64,000 bases of DNA. Origin: Saprospiraceae bacterium. GTDB lineage: Bacteria > Bacteroidota > Bacteroidia > Chitinophagales > Saprospiraceae. Below the pieces are notes generated by a model, which searched no databases, was not told the DNA's origin, and saw only the letters and a program-made list of their open reading frames with translations. Positions 39,139 to 40,887 of this stretch are shown piece after piece. The stretch lies in the NCBI GenBank assembly GCA_021739645.1, contig JAIPBL010000006.1:62001-126000 (forward strand), read 5' to 3'. Made by a program: the position numbers and the translations under genes. Positions within the stretch are counted from its first letter, which is position 1, and every line of letters starts with the position of its first letter.

Positions 39139-39613
39139 TCAATCTGTGGTCATTTTTTCTGCTGTTTTTTCTTCTTCCTCCTCTTTTTGAGGACAGGACG
39201 CCTCTTCCTTTTCTGCATGAGCTGCCCTTTTTTTCGCCCCTTTCCTTTTATTTGGAGTTTTGGCAAAAACAAGCCCTGCTCATTCTTTCCATCTGCAACT
39301 GAACCTGCGAAGGGGTCACTTGCCTATCATGTTCCACCCTGTTTTTAAAGCTCTTATCGTACTGTTGCCATTTGCGGCAACCATGTCCGGCTTCTCCCTT
39401 TCCAACAAAAAGCAGCCAATAGGCCAGGTTTACAAATTCCATCCAATTTTGCAAATGTCCCTCGTCCGGTGTCTGCGATTTGTCCAGCAGTAGCCTTTGT
39501 TTGCTGAACCGAAAAAAATGCGCTATGTCATACCGATTGCGGTATGCCCAATGGATTTCTTCTGCATCCAGTTCCATCCGCCGCTCACCCCACACACAAA
39601 GCCACATGCATTT
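39139..39613 (-). pseudogene. Decayed IS transposase, C-terminal remnant with frameshift
   Basis: The minus strand from 39613 reads ELDAEEIHWAYRNRYDIAHFFRF, SKQRLLLDKSQTPDEGHLQNW and TPSQVQLQMERM, the C-terminal part of a DDE transposase (YRxRYDIExFFRFxKQ pattern). The first frame ends at 39248, while the expected basic tail (AKTPNKRKGAKKRAA) continues in another frame to a stop at 39139, so a frameshift lies near 39270. An in-frame stop occurs just upstream at about 39614-39616, and the N-terminal half is missing where the SUMF1-type gene begins. This marks an old insertion and a rearrangement border. Confidence 0.65.
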
Positions 39614-39660
39614 TTAGAAGAGCGGTTGTTCTGTTTTTGCATCGAGCAGCCGGATTCGAC

Positions 39661-40308
39661 ATGATTTTCGTCGAGGGCGGCGACTTCCTCATGGGCAAAG
39701 GAAAGGACGCTCACCCTGTGAGAGTCAATAGCTTCTACATGGCCAAATACCAAGTCACACAGGCGCTTTGGCAAGCCATCATGGGTGAAAACCAATCAAA
39801 GATTATAGGTGAAAATCGCCCACCAGTAGAGACGGTTTCTTGGGACGACGCACAGGAATTTATCAAGCAATTGAGTAAGGCTACAAGCAAGGCATTCCGT
39901 TTGCCCACGGAAGCCGAATGGGAATTCGCTGCCCATGGCGGCATCTATTCCCAAGGCTGCATATTTGCTGGCAGCGACAAACTAAAACAAGTGGGCTGGC
40001 ACCATGAAAACAGTGGTAATGAAACCCACGATGTCGGCCTGCTGCTTGCCAACGAGCTTGGCATTCATGACCTCAGCGGCCATGTCTGGGAATGGTGTGA
40101 GGACGATTATCACGACAGCTACAAAGTTGCACCAAAAGACGGTTCAGCCTGGACAGATGCTCCTGATCGCCGTGTGATGCGTGGTGGCAGCTACTTCAGC
40201 GACGCTGACGGCCGCCACCCAGCGAACTGTGACAGGTGGACGCCGGGCAGCGGTGGCTGCGGCATCGGGTTCCGGCTGGTGTTCTCCCCCTCCAGTTCAG
40301 CCAGTTAG
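39661..40308 (+). CDS. SUMF1-fold (formylglycine-generating-enzyme-like) protein, likely diversified target protein
   Basis: 215 residues from ATG 39661 (MIFVEGGDFLMGKGKDAHPV). SUMF1 landmarks are present: FYMAKYQVTQALW, PVETVSWDDAQEFIKQLS, FRLPTEAEWEFAA, DLSGHVWEWCEDDY, and a final RVMRGGSYFS...GFRLVFSPS. It is short, lacks a signal peptide and ends exactly as C-type-lectin-like/SUMF1 target proteins of diversity-generating retroelements do. The last 30 residues before GFRLV align position by position with the usual variable-region layout. It is therefore more likely a ligand-binding variable protein than a sulfatase-activating enzyme. Confidence 0.8.
   Translation: MIFVEGGDFLMGKGKDAHPVRVNSFYMAKYQVTQALWQAIMGENQSKIIGENRPPVETVSWDDAQEFIKQLSKATSKAFRLPTEAEWEFAAHGGIYSQGCIFAGSDKLKQVGWHHENSGNETHDVGLLLANELGIHDLSGHVWEWCEDDYHDSYKVAPKDGSAWTDAPDRRVMRGGSYFSDADGRHPANCDRWTPGSGGCGIGFRLVFSPSSSAS
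40171..40281 (+). other. Candidate variable repeat (VR) of a diversity-generating retroelement
   Basis: Between the invariant RGGS and IGFRLV codons, 16 of 25 codons end in C (TAC, TTC, AGC, GAC, GGC, CAC, TGC and others) and only one AAC remains. That is the pattern left by adenine-specific mutagenesis of AAC-rich template codons. The GC-rich GGCATCGGGTTCCGGCTGGT end matches the expected homing-signal position. No template repeat, avd or reverse transcriptase was found in the window. Confidence 0.6.
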
Positions 40309-40497: not shown

Positions 40498-40887
40498 TCA
40501 ATTCCCACTCCCAGTTTCCTTCTTCAGTGCTTTGATTTGAGATTCCCACAGGGCTTTTTGCTCCCTGACCTCGTCTTCGTCGCAGAAGTCGGTGATTTCG
40601 AGAATGGTCTCGCTGGTGACCGGGGACTGGGAAATTCGATATTCCAGGTACTCGCCTTCCCGGTCTTCGTCCACCCAATCAAAACGAACGACTTCATCCT
40701 CGACGTCCTCGGTCAGGCGGGCGATTTCGGGATAGCCGCCCCAACTAAAAGTGTAGAGCGTCTCGCCTTCTACTTCGATATCGTCGCAGAACCAGCGGAT
40801 TAGCTCTGACGGTGAGGTGAAAAATTGATACAACAAGGTGGGAGAAGCCTTGAGTATAAATTCCAGTGTAATCTTTACTCGGTTCAT
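40498..40887 (-). CDS. START-like domain protein (SRPBCC superfamily)
   Basis: 129 residues. MNRVKITLEFILKASPTLLYQFFTSPSELIRWFCDDIEVEGETLYTFSWGGYPE is the signature of the Bacteroidota START-like family, a helix-grip fold with a hydrophobic cavity. ETILEITDFCDEDEVREQKALWESQI forms the C-terminal helix. Cytosolic, very acidic. Its ligand and role are unknown. The gene ends at the edge of the SUMF1/transposase patch. Confidence 0.85.
   Translation of the reverse strand: MNRVKITLEFILKASPTLLYQFFTSPSELIRWFCDDIEVEGETLYTFSWGGYPEIARLTEDVEDEVVRFDWVDEDREGEYLEYRISQSPVTSETILEITDFCDEDEVREQKALWESQIKALKKETGSGN

Follow-up and report, generated by a model that had tools for sequence, protein, structure and literature searches.

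A solitary FGE-sulfatase-family gene in a Saprospiraceae genome was likely once the target of a diversity-generating retroelement

Within a 64,000-nucleotide stretch of a Saprospiraceae genome (hereafter the window), one gene ends in the manner of diversity-generating retroelement (DGR) targets and has no such element beside it. Was this gene ever diversified by a DGR, and, if so, is it still? An earlier note, made from the letters of the window alone, described it as a SUMF1-type DGR target lacking a nearby retroelement, which would be either diversified in trans or frozen. Its product folds as DGR variable proteins do, the relatives nearest to it are DGR targets, and neither the reverse transcriptase (RT) nor the template of that type of DGR was found in the assembly. 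We consider it likely that the gene was once the target of a DGR of the HRDC-RT-FGE target-template type and now stands alone, and its variable end is probably frozen.

The 215-residue product has a single Pfam match, to PF03781 (FGE-sulfatase; 143.3 bits, cut-off 23.3), and TvpA (2y3c) is the best of its 22 sequence matches among solved structures (E 2e-24). With an AlphaFold2 model built from 27 aligned sequences (mean pLDDT 86.8, pTM 0.86), a Foldseek search likewise placed TvpA on top (E 5.5e-17, TMq 0.85), and enzymes of the same fold ranked below. Sequence and predicted structure thus point to a C-type-lectin/FGE fold that ends in a variable block, a combination expected of DGR targets. 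Eight NCBIfam families matched the protein, all with scores far under their own cut-offs, and it was therefore not filed as a known enzyme. Catalytic formylglycine-generating enzymes have paired active-site cysteines; here, no equivalog score exceeded its cut-off, and the variable-type block holds only C190 and C200. By eye, the protein appears to lack a signal peptide, as the earlier note had stated. The core shows no clear decay, with deviations at 3 of 47 highly conserved columns (rank 25 of 132), and gives no support to gene decay as proof of freezing; only the loss of landmark residues in the block points that way.

Features of the locus, in window coordinates
Feature	Coordinates	Strand	Details
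Transposase-like fragment facing the 5' end of the gene	39248..39607	-	DDE_Tnp_1, 17.5 bits (below the threshold of 23)
In-frame stretch upstream of the ATG, still alignable with the L156 target	39637..39660	+	tblastn with the L156 target
FGE-sulfatase / C-type-lectin-fold protein, likely orphan DGR-type target	39661..40308	+	Open frame of 215 aa on contig C86 of the source assembly; PF03781; TvpA matches by sequence and predicted structure
RGGS-x25-GFR block	40180..40275	+	RGGS 40180-40191; 25 codons matching the variable region 40192-40266 (16/25 NNC); GFR 40267-40275
START-like gene, conserved right-hand neighbour (flank only)	40498..40887	-	PF19569, 98.8 bits

The block was the original reason to suspect a DGR. 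Its length does match that of a variable region, as had been claimed, though the RGGS-25-GFR spacing is a property of the family and is also common to relatives without an RT in the stretch examined. The count of NNC codons that had been offered as the trace of adenine mutagenesis is exact, and a single AAC codon is left among the 25, in line with the remark that almost none remained. However, at least 16 NNC codons were also reached by 4.6% of 5548 overlapping 25-codon stretches taken from 16 neighbouring ORFs; the argument from NNC codons is therefore weak, and codon bias was ruled out as proof of DGR mutagenesis. The GC content of the block is 0.70, versus 0.54 for the whole gene. The landmark residues, which had been said to match as well, did not hold up. 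Cys8, Arg9, Arg13 and Arg21 (block numbering) are encoded by all five templates available, and all four are replaced here (by R, H, C and G, respectively). Across the loci examined, the fixed-spacing pattern RGGS-x25-GFR identified 52 distinct elements, including the five templates and one chance frame (L034). Among the 45 elements other than this gene, templates and chance frame excluded, four landmarks are retained in 20, three in 16, two in 7, one in 2 and zero in none. All four losses are codon changes at non-adenine template bases. The block, and not the rest of the gene, thus looks worn, which is suggestive, though not proof, of a frozen block. A gapped alignment that would rescue the landmarks, weighed by eye, was disfavoured: the ungapped register is anchored by the AGG codon at position 15 and by the flanks.

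Relatives were searched for in 24 stretches (20 from relatives, L059 and three from the source genome itself). The three best-scoring, L059 (JAJFJK010000038.1, labelled as a Nitrosomonas MAG), L143 (G036:C93) and L156 (G225:C212), all come with an RT and a template. So does L145 (G047:C106), seventh by E-value, with a gene on contig C115 of the source genome ranking before it. The targets of L156 and L059 are the closest target proteins, at 53–56% identity; among 60 genomes, the nearest relatives are at most 55% identical. Both loci combine an HRDC accessory, an RT, an FGE target, a template and an LRR-Roc-COR protein, with a TIR in L156. In a core tree of 131 rows from which the variable region had been removed, the window gene is sister to the L156 target (support 87/81), inside a 16-row clade that contains six of the seven rows labelled as DGR-linked; L146 carries this label by its Avd alone, and L058 because it is a target, on a different contig, of the L156 template. 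The core thus groups with targets of HRDC-RT-type DGRs, with moderate support and, according to a program warning, a bootstrap that had not settled. What the earlier note took for a DGR target therefore stands as a statement of ancestry, as the targets of L059, L143 and L156 lie beside DGR RTs and that of L156 is the sister. Separately, one template in G225 (L157 1883-1978, L156 3528-3433) is shared by two targets that lie on different contigs and both match it at every non-adenine site, and the second of these belongs to a distant FGE branch of the tree.

At home, the machinery of these relatives was not detected. Using two DGR RTs and one Avd as tblastn queries, we found no RT or Avd relatives in the window at E 0.01, as the earlier note had stated, and HRDC and RT queries gave chance matches only. 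The source assembly (6.16 Mb, 147 contigs, 99.68% complete, 3.33% contamination) contains a single RT over threshold (RVT_1, 96 bits), on contig C51. The L156 RT as query recovered the same RT plus a chance match on C9 (E 0.41), which was rejected as an RT remnant: it falls within an unrelated long frame on the opposite strand. The C51 enzyme is a DGR RT, but of another type, sharing 36–38% identity with those found beside the gene's relatives. Together with a template and a divergently placed Avd (NF033474, 94.2 bits, cut-off 80) it forms a DGR core at L012 1160-2839 (G000:C51, ~40.9-42.6 kb), 1–3 kb from the contig end. The template is A-rich and FGE-type, holds 11 AAY codons and overlaps the 3' end of the RT; a cognate target for it was not found in the source assembly. 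Several copies of a palindromic repeat of the CCGAACTGGGGTTCGG type occur at L012 2340-2500 and 2840-2900, between the C51 RT and Avd and beyond, next to an IS200-like Y1 transposase (35.3 bits). The DNA of the window block matched only itself in its own genome and, among 298 genomes of the family (up to two candidates scored per genome), only its own genome and G225. The C51 template and an orphan block on C115 were also used as DNA queries against the source genome, and no template differing from the block of the window gene only at adenines was found there. The earlier note had proposed that its reading would fall if the genome held neither a template nor a DGR RT; both exist on C51, but the template is not that of this gene.

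Repeat-rich loci often drop into assembly gaps, and it counts against the orphan reading that an assembly of 147 contigs may lack the locus. We regard it as unlikely that diversification continues in trans through a second DGR absent from this assembly. Besides the fragmentation, and a C51 DGR itself so near a contig end, this alternative is favoured by the variable regions of C108 and C115 (47019-47135), which have the look of sister copies made from a template not seen here: of 96 nt, 19 differ, 15 at codon positions 1 or 2 and none at any of the 28 C. Yet neither RVT_1 nor the L156 RT detected a second RT in the 147 contigs, and fresh copying of a template would restore the lost landmarks, which all five templates encode.

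The fit to templates was judged against template/target pairs in relatives, of which six were seen and four counted, the L059 first target and L145 being of unequal length. The counted pairs show 16, 16, 10 and 14 changes at adenines, and none at the remaining sites (0/69, 0/69, 0/72 and 0/70). Over all codon positions, the window gene differs from each of the five templates at 20–27 of 68–72 non-adenine sites, and none stands out. At codon positions 1 and 2, it differs from the L156 template at 17 of 25 adenines and at 6 of 23 other bases (Fisher 0.004, uncorrected). This is a modest fit, which places it third of 46, behind only the two targets that belong to this template; its ranks against the other four templates are 11, 14, 16 and, for that of C51, 23.

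These comparisons also bear on whether the gene was ever hypermutated. It would be quite improbable, in our view, for this to be an ordinary FGE-like protein whose block is a fast-evolving surface loop of the family, even though many relatives without an RT in the stretch examined share the spacing, the NNC richness is unexceptional, and the negative control L087 (no RT in the stretch examined) scores nearly as well as the window gene against one template. Both its sister and its closest relatives are targets of DGRs, and residue identity to the variable region of the L156 target splits exactly along the AAY codons of the L156 template: 0/11 at these codons and 6/13 elsewhere.

Diversification in trans by the C51 DGR is hardly credible: although its RT, Avd and A-rich FGE-type template lack a cognate target in the assembly, the template differs from the 96-base block at 25 of 68 non-adenine sites (and 19 of 28 adenines) versus 0 of 69–72 in the four counted pairs, its fit lies at the middle rank given above, and its RT is of a different type. 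In PMC10907252, a match at all non-adenine sites is the test for action in trans, which the window gene fails with these 25 mismatches. As this template is the only one found in the genome, a frozen former target is preferred over trans diversification, the two fates that the earlier note had left side by side.

The flanks suggest how the gene may have become separated. In tblastn, residues 17-247 of the L156 target match window positions 39637-40290, and ~16 residues at the start of that target are without counterpart. A gap of 30 bases separates this similarity from the start of the transposase-like frame at 39607. That frame was described earlier as a truncated transposase; it does resemble the end of a DDE transposase, albeit with a score under the cut-off, and no other copies were found in the source genome at E 0.001. 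On the other side, START is followed by RpoD in 10/11 same-genus loci, and neither a window-type gene nor the transposase-like fragment stands next to START in any of the 11 (≤1.5 kb per locus). No empty site could be defined, as synteny does not extend into the left flank in seven longer stretches. Since similarity begins at 39637, close to the transposase-like frame, and the gene is absent beside START in the 11 loci, the sequence makes a rearrangement at 39607-39637 likely. That the gene was copied there, as had been suggested, is accordingly possible on these same grounds. A 262-bp partial copy of START, 96% identical, was also observed at G000:C140:49921-50172 (L175 1494-1755); it ends at the window similarity boundary 40498.

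If the gene is a solitary former target, its ancestor would have carried, or acquired the gene from, an HRDC-RT-type DGR locus. RT copies of the A-rich template, with adenines randomised, would have overwritten the C-terminal block and altered the binding face. The transposase-linked rearrangement at the 5' boundary could have severed the target from this locus or relocated the target by itself, after which RT and template would have been lost. The block would since have been fixed and have accumulated ordinary non-adenine changes, such as those in the four landmark codons. The remaining protein appears intact and may still bind the ligand of its last variant.

Other genes of the source genome extend the pattern. 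FGE variable-type ends without a template in the assembly are also found on C115, where the protein is a TIR-FGE, and on C108, where the gene lies near an AAA_5 ATPase. Behind the TIR-FGE gene lies an orphan 45-codon copy of a variable region (L011 1501-1617, G000:C115:47019-47135), which shares 84% identity with C108 over 172 bp that span the end of the gene there and its 3' flank. The genome encodes one COR-A protein, on C41, and no FGE relative of the window type was found above chance within a 14-kb stretch of that contig. A C51 core without a cognate target thus coexists with at least three target lineages (C86, C115 and C108) without a template. On this basis, mutators and targets might turn over separately in this genome, with targets kept as fixed binders, a memory of past specificities and not junk. 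We consider this reading doubtful, and assembly gaps could also produce a mismatch between core and targets. Should the mismatch be true in a closed assembly, the retention of fixed variants after loss of the mutator becomes testable. More generally, the gene makes a case for recognising orphaned DGR targets by the company of their relatives rather than by a template, and shows that codon bias alone is unfit for spotting them.

Among known systems, putative conflict-system sensors diversified by DGRs combine FGE/C-type-lectin variable domains with neighbouring NTPases and TIR (PMC10907252, PMC7159879). The window gene shares the FGE/C-type-lectin domain with the sensors described there, but has no effector domain or adjoining effector partner. 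The HRDC-RT-FGE loci L156 and L059 hold its nearest target proteins, including its sister in the tree, whereas the window lacks their HRDC accessory, RT, template and LRR-Roc-COR protein, as well as the TIR of L156. The gene resembles TvpA (T. denticola variable protein 1), the best match in both sequence and predicted structure, in pairing a C-type-lectin/FGE fold with a variable block at the C-terminus. TvpA is identified as a DGR variable protein by its record and by PMC6328139, whereas neither a partner RT nor a template accompanies the window gene. A precedent comes from T. denticola isolates that keep target genes without an RT and template, which the authors of PMC4891356 regard as likely leftovers or singly acquired. 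The same paper describes a remote target in isolate SP32 (HMPREF9732_00892) that fits the template of another DGR type better than that of its own genome, and a leftover with 21 changes from a known template, 19 of them at adenines. The window gene is akin to these remote and leftover targets (SP32 HMPREF9732_00892; al-2); unlike the leftover with its near-perfect template match, it fits no available template at non-adenine sites, which implies either a loss older than in T. denticola or an unsampled template. The window gene is thus of the same, already described kind as the T. denticola leftovers of PMC4891356, with a more eroded template match.
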